From a virus: a stretch of DNA of 31,465 nt. Each line of letters opens with the position of its first letter. Within the stretch, counting starts at the first letter, position 1. The stretch covers positions 1 through 31,465 of IMG/VR virus record IMGVR_UViG_3300020457_000046. One strand, 5' to 3'. The position numbers and the translations under genes are program-made. A model generated the notes under the pieces. It saw only the letters and a list, made by a program, of their open reading frames with translations, had not been told where the DNA came from and did no database searches. Shown here piece by piece: positions 24,599-31,465 of this stretch.

Positions 24599-25235
24599 CG
24601 GGTGTTGTCCAGAAATAATCGTCACAATCACCTAAACGACCCCATTTAACATCGTTTTCTACCTCAAAGATGCGTGTTGATACCTTAAAGTCAGGTGTTT
24701 TGACAGGATCAGGTGTCATTGAGGTGTCATATATGCGACATCTGTTGTTTGGATAGAGTGCAAACTGTCCATTACGCAATTCAACAAGGTTAAATGACTT
24801 ATGTTCATCTGGTAATTCACTTGTAGACGCATCAATTTGATCAAAATCCCCATGATAGTTGTCTAAAGTGCAAATATACTGTCCTTTTTGGTTTCCATAG
24901 TGCCTTGTACGCAGTTCCCACTCCATTGGTGCAACAAATTGCTTGACAATTACAGTAAAATCATAGTCCATACAGTTCCAAAACTGTAAATTCACCAAAT
25001 CCATGTCTGGATCAGGTGTTTTTGGTGATGATAAGAATGCAGATATCGGTAATTTATCATACATTGCACCATATTCTGGTAAATATGTCTCAAAATAGAA
25101 TGCTCGTCCCTGTATAGACTTCGCACATACCCATATTCCCTCAATAAACTCCCCATGACCTGATTGGAAGTCAGTTAAATATTCTTTTCTTACCCATACC
25201 TTCTTGGTTGGAAGGTTTCCGATTAGTTTTGCCAT
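24579..25235 (-). CDS. Unrecognised phage protein, 218 aa
   Basis: The protein begins MAKLIGNLPTKKVWVRKEYL. It is rich in aromatic residues (several W, Y and F clusters such as 'L-Q-F-W-N-C-M-D-Y-D-F-T' near 83-95 and 'C-D-D-Y-F-W-T-T-P' near the end), with strand-like segments and few long helices. No transmembrane segment, signal peptide or catalytic signature is evident. It looks like a conserved T4-like phage hypothetical protein, but I cannot name its family or function. Its start overlaps the stop of the 146-residue gene by 13 nt and its end overlaps the next gene, making a chain of overlapping genes from 25966 down to 24122 that points to a single operon feeding towards the baseplate genes. 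Confidence 0.65.
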   Translation of the reverse strand: MAKLIGNLPTKKVWVRKEYLTDFQSGHGEFIEGIWVCAKSIQGRAFYFETYLPEYGAMYDKLPISAFLSSPKTPDPDMDLVNLQFWNCMDYDFTVIVKQFVAPMEWELRTRHYGNQKGQYICTLDNYHGDFDQIDASTSELPDEHKSFNLVELRNGQFALYPNNRCRIYDTSMTPDPVKTPDFKVSTRIFEVENDVKWGRLGDCDDYFWTTPDERQEK

Positions 25236-25663
25236 GTATCAAAAAAGTTTGAAATTTCGTATCCGTCTAATTTTGCTTTGTAATCTGATGATTCACCCAG
25301 ATAATAGTAATTATAACCTAATCTCTTATATAATGCACATTCACTTTTGTTTGCAATATGCCCTAAACTCAGTTTCTTATTCTTATAGTCCCATGCGAAT
25401 TGATCCGCCCATACACTATTTACACTTTTAAAACGATAAGCAAGAGTAAATGCGACTAACTCATTACCATCATAATAACCAATCACATCAGAATGAGGTA
25501 GTTCAAACTCTTCAATAAAGATTGGTACAATATCATCAAACTTCTTATAAGTTACGTATTGCTTATAGATGTCTAAGCACCGACCAAAAGAAGAACTATC
25601 AAGAATACGATAGTTGTGGTACTCCTGATAGTTTGTGTCTTTGAGTCGAATGCGACAGAACAT
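25223..25663 (-). CDS. GNAT-fold / arginyltransferase-C-like protein, 146 aa
   Basis: The C-terminal half reads 'S-L-G-H-I-A-N-K-S-E-C-A-L-Y-K-R-L-G-Y' and then 'Y-Y-Y-L-G-E-S-S-D-Y-K-A-K-L-D-G-Y-E' (about 98-137). The same order (SLG, a helix ending LGY, YYLG, YKA, a conserved E) is seen in the C-terminal GNAT domain of arginyl-tRNA-protein and related aminoacyl transferases. The first half has 'V-I-G-Y-Y-D-G-N-E-L-V-A-F-T-L-A-Y' (about 60-75), a typical GNAT beta-hairpin. The protein is shorter than full-length transferases, so it may be an acetyl- or aminoacyl-transferase with a phage-specific substrate; this is inference from motif order. The ATG overlaps the stop of the 46-residue gene by one base (TAATG). 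Confidence 0.55.
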   Translation of the reverse strand: MFCRIRLKDTNYQEYHNYRILDSSSFGRCLDIYKQYVTYKKFDDIVPIFIEEFELPHSDVIGYYDGNELVAFTLAYRFKSVNSVWADQFAWDYKNKKLSLGHIANKSECALYKRLGYNYYYLGESSDYKAKLDGYEISNFFDTWQN

Positions 25664-27001: not shown

Positions 27002-27139
27002 TTATAATTTGTTTGTAACATTATCCTCTTCTTCATCATACTTCTTCAGCACAATCAATGGTGCCACCACTTGATGAAACTCTCGAAAGTATTCCATTCG
27101 ATCCTTATCATATAGTGGGGGTAGTTCTTTCTTACTCAT
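27002..27139 (-). CDS. Small charged protein, 45 aa
   Basis: The frame runs from ATG at 27139-27137 to TAA at 27004-27002; the product begins MSKKELPPLYDKDRMEYFRE and continues 'FHQVVAPLIVLKKYDEEEDN'. It is mostly helical and rich in charged residues, with one hydrophobic patch ('VVAPLIVL', residues 24-31) too short for a membrane span. The start lies 8 nt inside the end of the 64-residue gene, a coupling arrangement used throughout this genome. The function is unknown. Confidence 0.55.
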   Translation of the reverse strand: MSKKELPPLYDKDRMEYFREFHQVVAPLIVLKKYDEEEDNVTNKL

Positions 27140-27326
27140 CCGAGTTTGTAATGATTACTTCATCTCCATCAGAATTAAAACTTATCGGTGTTCCTTCGTA
27201 CCAATTCATTTCATTCATAATCCATTCTGGTATGATTGTAAAGTATTCACCAGTAACAGGATCAGTCTCTATGATGCTAGAAATTTCTGCGGGATTTTTT
27301 TTCATGTAGTGGATTTCATTTTTCAT
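27132..27326 (-). CDS. Small protein resembling an AbrB/MazE-like swapped hairpin, 64 aa
   Basis: Residues 22-60 read 'D-P-V-T-G-E-Y-F-T-I-I-P-E-W-I-M-N-E-M-N-W' and then 'Y-E-G-T-P-I-S-F-N-S-D-G-D-E-V-I-I-T'. The order strand, 'I-P', helix ending in an aromatic, 'x-E-G-T/D-x-I/V', strand, 'D-G-D-x-x-I-I' is that of AbrB/SpoVT/MazE-type DNA-binding hairpins. No toxin partner lies beside it, so a phage transcription regulator is possible but unproven. A second ATG at 27305 would shorten it by seven residues; neither start has a clear Shine-Dalgarno site. It overlaps the 45-residue gene by 8 nt. Confidence 0.55.
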   Translation of the reverse strand: MKNEIHYMKKNPAEISSIIETDPVTGEYFTIIPEWIMNEMNWYEGTPISFNSDGDEVIITNSDE

Positions 27327-27460: not shown

Positions 27461-28333
27461 TCACGAACGAATGATATTAAAGTTGTATCTGCTGAAGGTC
27501 TCCCTGTCCACCAACTTATATGTTCCGTTGAATCCGTGCATAACATACCCCTCCCCTGAGATGTAGTCATTGCCTAAGAAGCAATCAGCATCAAAATTAT
27601 CTCTCATTCTCAGCATAAACTCCTCCTTGATTTTCTTCACAAGTAACCACAACCGCACCAACTGATAGTTTGCGAACTCCTCCGCAACTACCTCATCTCC
27701 GTCACGAATGTACGCATTAAGATCAATTTTAATTTGCTTTGCTTCTTTCTCTGTGGCAAAGTCAACTAAGGTTGCCATCTGACGGGCAAACTGTATTAAC
27801 TGTGAGATGTTATGCCCTGCACCCAACTCAGATAACCACGCATCAGGTTGAACAAAACCCTCCCCCAACTTATCCAATAGGGGTGCTGCTGTCATTGTTT
27901 TCATTGTCTCCCCTGTGTACTCTGTATGAGGTGCAACGACTACTCCCGTGTTCTGAACTTCAGTAAATGTGTAACTAATTGCATTTGGTTTGTAATCTCT
28001 GTAACCACCGAACCCAATAAAGTCCCCTTGAAATATTCTGTCTGTACGGGGTAAGCAATTAAAACACCTGTGCAAAATGCCACTTAGTTCAATGTTGTTC
28101 CCGTGATTGCGTTCGATGTCCTCATTACTGTAATTAATTTTTGGGGTTCTCTTATTAAACACGGACTTCGTGCCAACAAAAAACTTTCCATTCTCTGGGT
28201 TAGTTCCCCATACAACTGCGGGCGATCCGTCTATCTTAACTGAGTAATGATTGTTAGACTCAAACGCATTGAGAACAGATAGATCCCCTGTAAGGATCGT
28301 ATCTTCTGGGTGTTCGATGTGGAGGTTTTTCAT
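27461..28333 (-). CDS. Covalent nucleotidyltransferase, RNA/DNA-ligase-like, 290 aa
   Basis: The ligase-superfamily motifs occur in order. Motif I is 'V-K-I-D-G-S-P-A' with the candidate AMP-accepting Lys33. A motif Ia/III-like 'F-F-V-G-T-K-S' follows, then 'F-Q-G-D-F-I-G-F' near 101-108. Motif IV is 'G-E-G-Y-V-M-H-G' (E261) and motif V is 'Y-K-L-V' (K273). No C-terminal domain follows motif V, so it is a compact catalytic core. Likely roles are RNA or DNA end-joining or nick repair; the substrate cannot be read from sequence. I start it at the ATG at 28333, one base after the upstream stop. A frame reaching 28426 adds 31 residues that overlap the upstream gene by 92 nt and do not resemble the family. 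Confidence 0.68.
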   Translation of the reverse strand: MKNLHIEHPEDTILTGDLSVLNAFESNNHYSVKIDGSPAVVWGTNPENGKFFVGTKSVFNKRTPKINYSNEDIERNHGNNIELSGILHRCFNCLPRTDRIFQGDFIGFGGYRDYKPNAISYTFTEVQNTGVVVAPHTEYTGETMKTMTAAPLLDKLGEGFVQPDAWLSELGAGHNISQLIQFARQMATLVDFATEKEAKQIKIDLNAYIRDGDEVVAEEFANYQLVRLWLLVKKIKEEFMLRMRDNFDADCFLGNDYISGEGYVMHGFNGTYKLVDRETFSRYNFNIIRS

Positions 28334-28334
28334 A

Positions 28335-28586
28335 TTAGGCAAAAATAGGGTTTGCGTACTTACTGCAAGGGTGTGGATTTTCTGGGGTGCAACCGAATGA
28401 AGCAAAAAACGAATCCATCTGCTCACGGTCTACCTCTGGGTCGTCGAAGTCAACTCCCCCTGCGTGATCTACTCCCCACTCTGCAACTTCAATTTCAAAA
28501 GTTTCAAAGTCTTCGCATAGAAAAGCAACGTCATAAAAGGACTCTTTTTCTTTGATGCGGTTGATGAGTGTTTGAGTTTTGTTCAT
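28335..28586 (-). CDS. Unrecognised acidic protein, 83 aa
   Basis: The protein begins MNKTQTLINRIKEKESFYDV and is acidic in the middle ('EDFETFEIEVAEWGVDHAGG', 'VDFDDPEVDREQMDSFFASF'). It contains three Cys residues, two of them near the C-terminus ('FGCTPENPHPCSKY'), which might bind a metal or form a disulfide; only two lie close together, so a zinc finger is not supported. It is the last gene behind the cassette at 28597 and stands one base before the nucleotidyltransferase, suggesting they share a message. No family is recognised. Confidence 0.65.
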   Translation of the reverse strand: MNKTQTLINRIKEKESFYDVAFLCEDFETFEIEVAEWGVDHAGGVDFDDPEVDREQMDSFFASFGCTPENPHPCSKYANPIFA

Positions 28587-28596
28587 TCTGTTCTGT

Positions 28597-28654
28597 GGTA
28601 TGTACTTATTATAATGGTTAATGGGGTCAGTTGTGACCCCTTGTGTGACGGTTT
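28597..28654 (-). promoter_or_regulatory. Regulatory cassette 1 (half palindrome, stem-loop, TATAAT box)
   Basis: The minus strand reads a degenerate half-site (AACCGTCACAC, near 28643-28653), a 7-bp stem GGGGTCA/TGACCCC with a 4-base loop (28623-28640), then TATAATAAGTACATACC (28613-28597). It sits between the 83-residue DUF7249-like gene and the unrecognised 83-residue acidic gene. The -10-like hexamer ends 21 bases before the start codon, and no obvious Shine-Dalgarno site follows. Confidence 0.6.
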
Positions 28655-28904
28655 ATAATTCGTCCATCATCTCCTGCATTTCTTCAAAGTTTGCTTCGTC
28701 CCACTTTGCTCCGTCGGGTGTTTTGTCGTTGCCCATTTCTTTGATACAATCAACGAACTCCCCGTAATCTCTGTAATATCTTGCTAAATTATAAAAACCT
28801 TCGTCCCCTCCTATCCATAACGCACAGTTCCATGTAGTCCAGTCTGACCATCCATTATATTCTGTTCTTGGTGTGTCTGTAAGGTTGATTGCTGTTTGAA
28901 ACAT
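28653..28904 (-). CDS. Small phage protein of the DUF7249-like 'GWSxxxTWNxALWI' type, 83 aa
   Basis: Residues 15-45 read 'Y-N-G-W-S-D-W-T-T-W-N-C-A-L-W-I', 'D-E-G-F-Y-N-L-A'. I recognise this as the signature of a short protein widespread in phages ('GWSNYETWNVALWI' in many relatives). The function of the family is not established. The C-terminal part is acidic and helical. The start is set by AAAAGGAGTT eleven bases before the ATG, and cassette 2 supplies the promoter. The TAA stop lies at the edge of cassette 1. Confidence 0.72.
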   Translation of the reverse strand: MFQTAINLTDTPRTEYNGWSDWTTWNCALWIGGDEGFYNLARYYRDYGEFVDCIKEMGNDKTPDGAKWDEANFEEMQEMMDEL

Positions 28905-28920: not shown

Positions 28921-28990
28921 TGTATGTACTTATTATAACGGGTAGTATGTGAGGTTACTACCCGTGATGTGCCACTTTGTGAACTGTCAC
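28921..28990 (-). promoter_or_regulatory. Regulatory cassette 2 (palindrome, stem-loop, TATAAT box, SD)
   Basis: On the minus strand the order is palindrome GTGACAGTT-CACA-AAGTGGCAC (28990-28969), a 9-bp stem CGGGTAGTA/TACTACCCG with an 8-base loop (28939-28964), then TATAATAAGTACATACA (28937-28921), followed by AAAAGGAGTT before the next ATG. The TGA stop of the upstream gene (28989-28987) lies inside the palindrome. The palindrome stands 31 bases from TATAAT. Confidence 0.68.
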
Positions 28991-29226
28991 TTAAACGCTG
29001 TCAGTGGGTGTGGTCGGTTGTTACAGTATGAAAGTTCAGTTAAATAAACCCCCATATAATTCTGCACCTTATCAAAGAGTTTAGAAACTCTCTCATCTTC
29101 GGTTTTGCCTTCTGCACTCCAGACTCCTAACCCGTTATCAGACTTCCACTCAAGGTCTTTGATCTCATCATCGTTCTTGAACTTTGTGTCAAAACCGATC
29201 TTCTCAACAATGTAAAATTTATTCAT
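28987..29226 (-). CDS. Unrecognised small protein, 79 aa
   Basis: I choose the ATG at 29226 (MNKFYIVEKIGFDTKFKNDD) because GGAGG lies ten bases before it. The in-frame ATG five codons upstream contains that Shine-Dalgarno sequence in its own codons and would overlap the previous gene more. The protein is beta-alpha in pattern, with 'G-L-G-V-W-S-A-E-G-K-T-E-D-E-R' in the middle and a helix before 'Y-L-T-E-L-S-Y'. No family is recognised. Its start follows the 43-residue gene's stop by one base; its stop is embedded in the palindrome of cassette 2. Confidence 0.65.
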   Translation of the reverse strand: MNKFYIVEKIGFDTKFKNDDEIKDLEWKSDNGLGVWSAEGKTEDERVSKLFDKVQNYMGVYLTELSYCNNRPHPLTAFK

Positions 29227-29227
29227 C

Positions 29228-29359
29228 TTACTTACCTCCATTGAATTGTTGAATTAAAGTGTCTGTATGCTTATCCTGTCTCTCTATCAATTCATCACAC
29301 ATTCTGATTAACCTTCTTAACTCCTCAACATCCTTGTCAAATTGTTTTGTGGTGTACAT
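29228..29359 (-). CDS. Small coiled-coil protein, 43 aa
   Basis: ATG at 29359-29357 opens 43 codons ending in TAA at 29230-29228. The product begins MYTTKQFDKDVEELRRLIRM and continues 'CDELIERQDKHTDTLIQQFN'. This is an almost continuous helix with hydrophobics at 3-4 spacing, likely a short coiled coil. AAAAGGAGTTCTTC precedes the start, and cassette 3 lies just upstream. The end of the gene (GGAGGTAAG) doubles as the Shine-Dalgarno site of the next gene. The function is unknown. Confidence 0.65.
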   Translation of the reverse strand: MYTTKQFDKDVEELRRLIRMCDELIERQDKHTDTLIQQFNGGK

Positions 29360-29375: not shown

Positions 29376-29443
29376 GGTATACATTTATTATAATGGATAC
29401 GGGGACGAATGGAAGTCCCCGTGTGACAGTTCTTAAACTGTCA
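29376..29443 (-). promoter_or_regulatory. Regulatory cassette 3 (perfect palindrome, stem-loop, TATAAT box)
   Basis: This is the best copy. On the minus strand a perfect palindrome TGACAGTT-TAAG-AACTGTCA (29443-29424) is followed by an 8-bp stem ACGGGGAC/GTCCCCGT with an 8-base loop (29399-29422), then TATAATAAATGTATACC (29392-29376) and AAAAGGAGTTCTTC before the ATG of the 43-residue gene. The upstream nuclease-like gene stops six bases before the palindrome. Confidence 0.7.
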
Positions 29444-29448
29444 TACAC

Positions 29449-29946
29449 TTACTTGATTCTCTCTCCGTGTGTGATAATGTCTCTCATAGGTATGGAAACT
29501 CCGATGCGTGGGTCTTTTCCAAATCCTTTCTGTTTTTTTGGATACTGTTTTTTAATCTTAGGTAGTAGTAATGCTAATACGTCTTTTGCACTTAGTTTCC
29601 ATACTTCTGCAATTTTACCACCGTCATAACGTGCATAATAATGATTTTCATATTTTCCGATTTTATCCTTTAAAATATACTCCTCCTGTTCCTCCCACGT
29701 ATCCTGTACCGATATTCCGTTATAGGTTGCGTTTATATTCTTACCTATGGTTGATTTGTATTCACATTCTCCGATTTCGTCAAATGCGTCTGCACCTGAG
29801 TAGTCTTCCGCAACTTTGTGACCTAATACCCCTGCCATATGGATTTCTCTTGAACGTGCATATGAGAACGGATCTCCCCAGTTGTTCTCTTCACATAGGG
29901 TGTACATCTCTTCAAATAGTTTTTGAAACTTTTGTTCTGGTGTCAT
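29449..29946 (-). CDS. Candidate PD-(D/E)XK nuclease (restriction-endonuclease-like), 165 aa
   Basis: Residues 31-66 read 'R-S-R-E-I-H-M-A-G-V-L-G-H-K-V-A-E-D-Y', 'S-G-A-D-A-F-D-E-I-G-E-C-E-Y-K-S-T'. A helix Glu (E34), an Asp before a hydrophobic strand (D53) and E62-x-K64 at the end of the next strand fit the PD-(D/E)XK catalytic layout of type II restriction and related phage nucleases. 'G-K-N-I-N-A-T-Y-N-G-I-S' follows, then a mixed helix-strand half with a Lys-rich segment (residues 129-144) that could contact DNA. The small size suits a dimeric site-specific or recombination nuclease. No methylase or other partner lies nearby. The assignment is from motif spacing only. The gene sits between cassettes 3 and 4. 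Confidence 0.55.
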   Translation of the reverse strand: MTPEQKFQKLFEEMYTLCEENNWGDPFSYARSREIHMAGVLGHKVAEDYSGADAFDEIGECEYKSTIGKNINATYNGISVQDTWEEQEEYILKDKIGKYENHYYARYDGGKIAEVWKLSAKDVLALLLPKIKKQYPKKQKGFGKDPRIGVSIPMRDIITHGERIK

Positions 29947-29955
29947 TTGTTTGGT

Positions 29956-30004
29956 GGTGTATACGTTTATTATAAAGGATACGGGAACTGATTAAAGTCC
30001 CCGT
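29956..30004 (-). promoter_or_regulatory. Regulatory cassette 4 (stem-loop and TATAAT box, palindrome decayed)
   Basis: The minus strand has a 9-bp stem with one mismatch (ACGGGGACT against AGTTCCCGT, loop TTAATC; 29981-30004), then TATAATAAACGTATACACC (29974-29956), leading to the nuclease-like gene. Where the palindrome is expected the sequence is only AAGTTAATGTA, so the operator is lost or unrecognisable. No Shine-Dalgarno site precedes the ATG. Confidence 0.55.
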
Positions 30005-30013
30005 TACATTAAC

Positions 30014-30256
30014 TTAATATTCTGATACAATTCTCAACCAACTCCAAACCTCTGATTTGGTTAACCATCCTCTAACGTCCTGCCATTCGTGGTCGTCATA
30101 GTGTAACTGGTCTCCCTTTAAAAGTGCAATCTCATAAAGTCCCTCTTTACCTCCATAAGAATGTTCATGACAGGCAACTGAGAGACCATACCCATTCTCA
30201 CAATAGTAACGAACCACTTCGTCATTTGGTCTGATTACTCTTTTTTCAGTGTACAT
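30014..30256 (-). CDS. Small phage protein 'NGYGxSVxxHxxSYGG' type, 80 aa
   Basis: The protein begins MYTEKRVIRPNDEVVRYYCE and continues 'NGYGLSVACHEHSYGGKEGL', 'YEIALLKG'. The block 'N-G-Y-G-x-S-V...H-x-x-S-Y-G-G-x-x-G-L-Y-E-I-A' looks like a compact beta domain that recurs in small early proteins of marine T4-like phages; I know no function for it. The C-terminus 'D-V-R-G-W-L-T-K-S-E-V-W' is helical. The leader AAAGTTTAAAAACT before its ATG is nearly the same as that of the 42-residue gene at 30722, with no Shine-Dalgarno site. Confidence 0.65.
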   Translation of the reverse strand: MYTEKRVIRPNDEVVRYYCENGYGLSVACHEHSYGGKEGLYEIALLKGDQLHYDDHEWQDVRGWLTKSEVWSWLRIVSEY

Positions 30257-30275: not shown

Positions 30276-30343
30276 TTATGTACTTATTATAAACAATAGT
30301 GAGAGTAAAATAAACCCACTATGTGCCACTTTGTTAACTGTCA
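30275..30343 (-). promoter_or_regulatory. Regulatory cassette 5 (palindrome, stem-loop, TATAAT box)
   Basis: On the minus strand TGACAGTT-AACA-AAGTGGCAC (30343-30323) is followed by a weak 6-bp stem ATAGTG/CACTAT (30296-30322), then TATAATAAGTACATAAC (30291-30275). The TAA stop of the 42-residue membrane protein (30336-30334) is inside the palindrome. The palindrome lies 31 bases from TATAAT. Confidence 0.62.
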
Positions 30344-30462
30344 TACTGATTCTTATATTTGTCTACGGATCGCCTATAATCCATTTCGGTTGCAATTGCC
30401 ATTCCTACTGTATAAAGTGCATAGCACCCACCGATTAAAATAAAAAGTTCAATTCCAGTCAT
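30334..30462 (-). CDS. Single-pass membrane peptide, 42 aa
   Basis: ATG at 30462-30460 opens 42 codons ending in TAA at 30336-30334. Residues 4-24 (IELFILIGGCYALYTVGMAI and one more residue) form a clear transmembrane helix, followed by a charged tail 'TEMDYRRSVDKYKNQYDS'. The start follows the previous stop directly (TAAATG), and GAGAGGAC stands eight bases upstream as a Shine-Dalgarno site. It probably inserts into the host inner membrane with the charged end in the cytoplasm; the role is unknown. Its last codons form part of the palindrome of cassette 5. Confidence 0.65.
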   Translation of the reverse strand: MTGIELFILIGGCYALYTVGMAIATEMDYRRSVDKYKNQYDS

Positions 30463-30820: not shown

Positions 30821-30890
30821 CTCTATATTCTTATTATAATGGATATGGGGACTTGTGGTAGTCCCCGTGTGCCACTTTATTAACTGTCCA
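30821..30890 (-). promoter_or_regulatory. Regulatory cassette 6 (palindrome, stem-loop, TATAAT box, long leader)
   Basis: On the minus strand TGGACAGTT-AATA-AAGTGGCAC (30890-30869) is followed by a 7-bp stem GGGGACT/AGTCCCC with a 6-base loop (30847-30866), then TATAATAAGAATATAGAGG (30838-30820). The following 98 bases before the next ATG hold no convincing gene; AGAGG then TTG could start a 15-codon peptide, which I regard as too weak to call. The TAG of the 61-residue gene lies directly beside the palindrome. Confidence 0.65.
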
Positions 30891-31076
30891 CTAATTGTAG
30901 ACAATTACTTGAAAGTGTGAATTAATAAAGTCATCTTCTTTTTTTCTTTTTCTGAGTTCGTTTTCGCAGTCAAATAATCTCTGATCCTCTTCGGGTGTGT
31001 TTAATGCTCTGAGTGATGAGAGTGCTTTCACGATTGCTTTTAACTCTTCTGTGGTTCTGTGTGATTGTGGATTCAT
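30891..31076 (-). CDS. Small helical protein, 61 aa
   Basis: I start it at the ATG at 31076 (MNPQSHRTTEELKAIVKALS) rather than at a TTG three codons upstream, because that ATG overlaps the stop of the 18-residue ORF as ATGA. Residues 8-48 are a charged helix pair ('TEELKAIVKALSSLRALNTP', 'EEDQRLFDCENELRKRKKED'). No family is recognised; such small helical proteins are common among phage host-takeover genes, but nothing specific shows here. Confidence 0.6.
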   Translation of the reverse strand: MNPQSHRTTEELKAIVKALSSLRALNTPEEDQRLFDCENELRKRKKEDDFINSHFQVIVYN

Positions 31077-31129: not shown

Positions 31130-31140
31130 ATTATAACTAC

Positions 31141-31362
31141 CTAAACCAACTTGTCTAGGTAGGTTTGTGCCACTTCTTTTGCTGTCCCACCGTCTATCCA
31201 TTTGTTGATGTGTCGTGATGTAGTTACTGACCACCACTTTTCTGTTTTTACAAATCCCTCTCCAAATACGTATGCCGCCACGGGTGTGCGGTAGGAAAAT
31301 AAAATTCTTGCTTCAGAAGTTTCAACCTCTGTCATGTTTGATGCGATTGGTGTTAGTTGCAT
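31141..31362 (-). CDS. Small conserved phage protein (DUF8033-like), 73 aa
   Basis: The protein begins MQLTPIASNMTEVETSEARI and has the block 'I-L-F-S-Y-R-T-P-V-A-A-Y-V', 'K-T-E-K-W-W-S-V-T-T-S-R-H-I-N-K-W-I'. I associate this 'SYxTPVAAY ... TExxxSxTTSRHINKW' pattern with a small protein family spread across many phages (I believe DUF8033); its function is unknown. The start is fixed by AAAGGAG seven bases before the ATG, behind cassette 7. Ten bases separate it from the next possible ORF. Confidence 0.7.
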   Translation of the reverse strand: MQLTPIASNMTEVETSEARILFSYRTPVAAYVFGEGFVKTEKWWSVTTSRHINKWIDGGTAKEVAQTYLDKLV

Positions 31363-31378: not shown

Positions 31379-31446
31379 GGTATGTACTTAATATAACCCC
31401 CATTTTGAAGGAATGGGGAAACCTTGTGCCACTTTCTAAACTGGTC
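31379..31446 (-). promoter_or_regulatory. Regulatory cassette 7 (palindrome, stem-loop, TATATT box, SD)
   Basis: On the minus strand GACCAGTT-TAGA-AAGTGGCAC (31446-31426) is followed by a 7-bp stem CCCCATT/AATGGGG (31398-31418), then TATATTAAGTACATACC (31395-31379) and AAAGGAG before the ATG. A gene cut by the right edge probably ends at one of the two TAG codons at 31448-31446 or 31438-31436, inside the palindrome, as in cassettes 2 and 5. Too little of it is present to call. Confidence 0.6.
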
Positions 31447-31465
31447 TACAGATACCCTGCAAATT

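Follow-up and report, generated by a model that had tools for sequence, protein, structure and literature searches.

A 24-bp dyad at a fixed distance from the -10 element in promoters of T4-like cyanophages

A palindrome of 20 bp, TGACAGTTCTTAAACTGTCA, is present at positions 29424-29443 of a 31,465-base IMG/VR record (hereafter the window, i.e. the whole stretch of DNA analysed), and the question is whether it represents a promoter control site and, if so, what kind of protein would use it. Its structural genes and nearest DNA matches, which are to T4-like cyanophages of Synechococcus and Prochlorococcus, identify the window as a cyanomyovirus contig, and on its minus strand, from approximately 28,300 to the contig end, there is a series of small open reading frames (ORFs), mostly of unknown function. 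A first-pass annotation had proposed that the palindrome recurs in imperfect form between these ORFs, at a constant distance from TATAAT and with no recognisable -35, as would a site for a dimeric activator or repressor of phage or host origin. The reading that we favour, and regard as rather probable, is that the dyad acts as upstream control element in a class of cyanophage promoters, which would be served by a dimeric, likely phage-encoded activator together with the host sigma-70 polymerase.

The dyad and its relatives in the window

The copy at 29424-29443 is a perfect dyad as proposed, and the five near-copies of the 20-mer in the window (at most three mismatches) exceed the number in every one of 100 shuffles (mean 0.36, maximum 3). 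The extent and the general symmetry had to be revised: the site extends over 24 bp, as the dyad TGTGMCASTT-N4-AASTGKCACA, and the consensus is imperfect (TGACAGTT / AAGTGGCA), the perfect copy in cassette 3 being the exception. When the junctions were read from every TATAWT on the minus strand between 28300 and 31465, seven small-gene junctions were seen to carry the 24-bp dyad or only its right half (Table 1). These comprise the imperfect relatives in other cassettes and the half-site in cassette 1 that had been noted, and also one more copy close to the end of the contig, before the MQL gene, that was absent from the earlier list.

At all seven junctions, 31 or 32 nt separate the edge of the 20-mer from the -10 element; the near-constant distance to TATAAT was thus correct, while the value of 29-31 was not. 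An eighth junction (-10 at 29969-29974) has the stem-loop and TATAAT without a dyad. Of the seven sites, six have an unaltered promoter-proximal half (AASTGKCACA) and one has a single mismatch in it, and the promoter-distal half is degraded at several. The sequence between the palindrome and the -10 does change in its letters, as had been noted, but it is not unrelated sequence: 8/8 junctions, each between small genes, combine a sigma-70-type promoter with a GC stem-loop of 6-10 bp, of differing sequence. Since the -35 is poor, plain sigma-70 scans of the window recovered few of these promoters.

In cassette 2 the upstream gene (ORF 28987-29241) uses the TGA of the dyad (28987-28989) as its stop codon. 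In other genomes, too, the site typically overlaps a stop, the nearest one upstream being situated approximately 3 nt inside it (median). An apparent plus-strand promoter at 30324 lies within a small ORF and was attributed to the symmetry of the dyad.

Table 1. Features of the window. d, distance (nt) from the 20-mer edge to the -10 element; L and R refer to the left and right half of the dyad.
Feature	Position	Strand	Remarks
Cassette 1 half-site, right half AACCGTCACA only	28644..28667	-	L6/R1; d = 32
Stem-loop and TATAAT (28608-28613) upstream of ORF 28335-28586	28608..28643	-	
DUF7249-family gene	28653-28904	-	Downstream of cassette 2 stem-loop and TATAAT
Cassette 2 dyad AGTGACAGTT-CACA-AAGTGGCACA	28968..28991	-	L1/R0
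Cassette 2 stem-loop (GGGTAGTA...TACTACCC) and TATAAT (28932-28937)	28932..28967	-	d = 32
Cassette 3 dyad TATGACAGTT-TAAG-AACTGTCACA	29422..29445	-	L1/R0; inner 20 bp (29424-29443) perfect
Cassette 3 GC stem-loop CGGGGAC...GTCCCCG, fills the spacer from dyad to -10	29393..29421	-	-13.4 kcal/mol, spacer alone
Cassette 3 -10 TATAAT	29387..29392	-	31 nt from 20-mer edge
Junction before ORF 29449-29946: stem-loop and TATAAT (29969-29974), no dyad	29969..30004	-	
Dyad TATGACAGTT-AACA-AAGTGGCACA upstream of ORF 30014-30256	30322..30345	-	L1/R0; d = 32
Stem-loop and TATAAT (30286-30291)	30286..30321	-	
Dyad GTGGACAGTT-AATA-AAGTGGCACA	30868..30891	-	L3/R0; d = 31
Stem-loop and TATAAT (30833-30838)	30833..30867	-	
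Degenerate dyad TGGGACAGCA-AAAG-AAGTGGCACA, right half intact	31166..31189	-	L3/R0; d = 32
Stem-loop and TATAAT (31130-31135)	31130..31165	-	
Degenerate dyad TAGACCAGTT-TAGA-AAGTGGCACA upstream of MQL... gene 31141-31362 (phrog_5643)	31425..31448	-	L3/R0
Stem-loop and TATATT (31390-31395)	31390..31424	-	
AbrB/MazE-like protein, 64 aa (phrog_661), weak candidate DNA-binding partner	27132..27326	-	

Occurrence in phage genomes and relation to genes

A symmetric weight matrix derived from ACG-2014f and the window was applied to T4 and to eight cyanophage genomes. At a score of ≥16 the number of sites varied widely among the phages, from many in ACG-2014f (31) over S-CRM01 (22), P-SSM2 (12), S-PM2 and S-SKS1 (9 each) and P-HM2 and P-SSM4 (5 each) to few in Syn9 (2), while a second-order Markov background predicts 0-0.4 sites per genome, a backward-pattern control gave 0-1 matches per genome and the T4 genome had none. 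Around 99 sites, scored on both sides without choosing an orientation, -10-like hexamers were found at 31 nt in 42 cases and at 32 nt in 32 (74 in total), against a background of 1.6 per position. Leaving out one genome at a time and using orientation-aware matrices, the 31/32-nt peak stayed in 8/8 phages and T4 gave zero; the search of full phage genomes that had been suggested as a check hence supports the spacing. For Syn9, relaxed thresholds gave five to six sites with d = 31/32, at promoter distance upstream of genes.

Using a 31-base query we matched 186 phage records, nearly all of them from cyanophages. A match in Anabaena phage A-4L lies within a coding gene and was taken as chance. 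In total, 375 distinct composite promoters were pooled from named genomes (77) and IMG/VR (298). Together they show the 24-bp dyad, a strong -10, a -35 of only approximately 1-2 bits, which supports the claim that a recognisable -35 is missing, and, where the start is expected, a conserved purine followed by T. Taking this purine as +1 would put the centre of the dyad at approximately -53.5 or -54.5.

A random distribution of the motif relative to genes had been named as an outcome that would speak against an operator. We found instead that the sites avoid ORFs (30/77 lie within one, vs 95% of random positions) and precede ORF starts, which occur 10-150 nt beyond the -10 for 58% of the sites vs 12% of random positions. 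Moreover, the same element is present before orthologous genes in different genera: for the MQL small protein (phrog_5643) in four genomes (the window, P-HM2, P-SSM2 and P-SSM4), for a peptidase also in four, for cobS and DUF6267 in three each, and for others in two. ACG-2014f has copies also before psbA and cobS, and among the genes preceded by a site are cobS, psbA and gp32, which may not be early. We conclude that the element is real, promoter-linked and widespread in T4-like cyanophages.

With respect to individual genes, the window encodes a DUF6267/phrog_455 protein (27461-28330, minus strand) that begins MKN.HIEHPED; in P-SSM2, ACG-2014f and Syn9 the element is found before its relatives. 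A 146-aa protein (25223-25663, minus strand) matches the arginine-tRNA-protein transferase C-terminal domain only just above the Pfam cut-off (25.2 vs 25.0 bits).

Mode of action and the binding protein

In the mechanism that we propose, a dimeric and most likely phage-encoded DNA-binding protein would occupy the 24-bp dyad, with its centre approximately 53-54 bp upstream of the start, and contact the host sigma-70 RNA polymerase at a promoter with a good -10 and a poor -35. This contact would activate transcription of small takeover genes and a few conserved genes, and the GC stem-loop that often lies between the dyad and the -10 would end or insulate the transcript of the upstream gene. The features of the sigma-70 class in which an activator replaces the -35, i.e., a strong -10, a weak -35 and an upstream site at fixed distance, are all present. 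The binding protein, its dimer state, activation over repression and the early timing are what we infer. Activation is favoured because of the weak -35 and the rigid spacing; the earlier proposal of an activator or repressor site holds with respect to a DNA site at a fixed -10 distance, while position and rigidity favour the activator over the repressor. Speaking against the proposed mechanism are the frequent degeneracy of the promoter-distal half-site, unexpected for a strictly symmetric dimer, the wide differences in site number between phages, and a subset of sites with a 26-nt spacing and a consensus -35.

The main rival is a repressor operator, where the promoters would fire at once with the host polymerase and an early phage protein would later shut them off via the dyad. 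A palindromic and phage-restricted site is in keeping with this, as are the several sites before putative early genes, and the good -10 together with the -35-like TTGGCA/TAGGCA at approximately 17 nt in ACG-2014f makes basal activity plausible. However, the dyad would cover approximately -65 to -42, upstream of the contacts that polymerase makes with the core promoter, such that steric repression appears less natural; repressor sites can as a rule be shifted, yet the spacing here varies by only 1 nt, and the -35 is weak in most phages. We therefore consider a repressor unlikely, if still worth weighing.

The origin of the protein was addressed by a motif search of host genomes, as the first-pass annotation had advised. 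The exact motif gave two matches in 201 genomes of the host family, which is of the order of chance, and in Synechococcus WH7803 a single match with three mismatches, equal to its control. These counts, no higher than chance, make it unlikely that a host regulator of this specificity is involved. That the phages borrow the site of a host cyanobacterial transcription factor at early times would agree with the need of early genes for a factor present at entry and with a site common to many phages of different hosts; given the host counts, and zero exact matches in the Prochlorococcus podovirus P-SSP7 (one small genome), we judge it very improbable.

On the phage side, relatives of MotA and Mor were rejected as binders: no MotA scored over the cut-off in any cyanophage searched (the T4 control was positive), nor was a Mor domain or Mor-family protein found in these phages. 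Proteins common to seven or more cyanophages but missing from T4 showed no clear DNA-binding domain, and the domain scan of these core proteins brought up only Sm-like, DUF1825, DUF3110 and DUF6561. A weak candidate is the 64-aa phrog_661 protein of the window, a family with no assigned function. Its structure model (moderate confidence, pLDDT 65) has a predicted beta-beta-alpha-beta-beta topology with MazE, SpoVT and AbrB as the best structural matches, and a profile search also points, weakly, to MazE. The family is present in 9/11 of the cyanomyoviruses searched; it may bind the dyad but is a weak lead because it went undetected, even with a relaxed profile search, in P-HM2 and S-CRM01, which both have sites. 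It is conceivable, albeit speculative, that a virion-borne or immediate-early cyanophage regulator of an undescribed type, perhaps the AbrB/MazE-fold phrog_661, binds the dyad and redirects unmodified host polymerase. If true, this would place dozens of phage promoters in one regulon under a phage regulator and constitute a takeover route unlike that of T4 Alt/MotA/AsiA.

The stem-loop and known phage systems

Could the dyad act as RNA? The dyad and the stem-loop might form a double hairpin at the 3' end of the upstream transcript, for termination or protection, the link to the -10 being incidental. The perfect cassette 3 copy, folded as RNA with its spacer, does fold well (z = -4.7), and stable spacer stem-loops are enriched across genomes (approximately 30% fold better than 95% of their own shuffles), some with U-tracts. 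However, half-site pair counts gave no compensatory changes between the arms. At half-site position 3, A-T pairs were observed 12 times (12.4 expected) and C-G pairs 15 times (15.4 expected), the commonest combination being the A.G mismatch (35), and at position 6 Watson-Crick pairs were fewer than expected (expectations worked by hand from the observed letter counts). Since the half-sites vary independently, we read the dyad as double-stranded DNA and not as an RNA hairpin. Moreover, the distance from the dyad to the -10 stays the same across unstructured spacers (those weaker than -2 kcal/mol, 26% of the sites), and Rfam gave no match to the element. For the dyad the RNA-hairpin reading was set aside on the absent covariation and the lack of an Rfam match, and is largely refuted; as an account of the whole element we give it little credence, while for the stem-loop part it stays likely.

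The stem-loop is a separate and optional part, and the spacing of the dyad is not optional. At the junction of the DUF7249 gene, close relatives of the window keep the dyad, the spacing and the -10, while the stem-loop sequence differs. A scan for T-run terminators passed 2/8 window junctions, no more than in shuffles; G/C stems with T-runs are common in relatives. Most likely the stem-loop terminates or insulates the upstream transcript, and each cassette would then be a terminator-plus-promoter unit, the terminator part being the putative one. Such a composite helps to explain how small takeover genes may be added or exchanged as self-contained units.

With respect to known systems, Doron and co-workers reportedly described in 2016 a novel early-gene regulatory element in Syn9 and P-TIM40 that is conserved among T4-like cyanophages and unlike that of T4. 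We take this, with fair assurance, to be the same element, the correspondence being in the phages (Syn9 has sites) and in a position upstream of putative early genes. The palindrome has probably, in other words, already been described for early genes of these phages; documented independently or added here are the dyad symmetry, the independence of the half-sites, the exact spacing over 375 promoters, the stem-loop composite and the absence from hosts.

The middle promoter Pm of phage Mu depends on Mor, a dimeric phage activator that binds an imperfect dyad near -51, with a good -10 and no real -35. The architecture is alike, but the site sequence differs and the cyanophages searched have no Mor-family protein. 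The T4 MotA/AsiA middle promoters likewise combine a phage activator (a putative one here) with host sigma-70 and a -10 with a weak -35, but the MotA box is short, non-palindromic and near -30, and MotA was not found in the cyanophages searched. Cyanomyoviruses are without the alt, modA, modB, motA and asi genes, so that the T4 proteins redirecting host polymerase are missing, and their early and middle control is described as unclear (PMC2984593). The 24-bp site, the 31/32-nt rule, the 375 promoters and the evidence against a host binder of this specificity make the question of early-gene control directly testable.

Promoter-early stem-loop (PeSL) cassettes (Arbiol 2010 and Comeau 2014, as cited in PMC4503421) are cited as mediators of gene shuffling in T4-like phages, with few in S-PM2 (PMC4503421). 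The cassettes studied here resemble them in that a stem-loop, a putative terminator, and an early-type promoter form a composite between small variable genes, and in that the stem-loop sequence may be exchanged; they differ in that the constant feature is the 24-bp dyad with its fixed distance, the stem-loop being optional, and T4 lacks such a dyad. That the shared sequence serves mainly as recombination handles for swapping small genes, with promoter function secondary, would fit the cassette arrays, the reuse of stem-loops among junctions and their replacement at orthologous ones, and the role described for PeSLs in other T4-like phages (PMC4503421), but it accounts neither for the retention of 24 bp whose halves vary independently and whose spacing stays exact although the intervening sequence diverges, nor for the sites before core genes (cobS, peptidase), and we find it the least credible main function, although such a role is compatible with the activator-promoter reading.

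Finally, variants of the element were observed. In a subclass (P-SSM4 173199, L027, L050, L088 and L109) the dyad lies closer to the -10, at 26 nt instead of 31, and a near-consensus TTGACA -35 is present; P-SSM4 and L050 in addition have a common conserved leader (ACGAAGGACTCGAAAGATCGTAACCCTGCG). In L034, L043, L045, L106 and L122 the 20-mer occurs in a different repeated context (TGACAGTTTATCAAGTGTCACT...) that lacks a -10 at the usual spacing. The contig L110 has several perfect or near-perfect palindromes adjoining DNA methyltransferase and anti-repressor genes, alongside further scanned proteins whose family is unknown, and at least one of its palindrome copies has a -10-like box 33 nt away.
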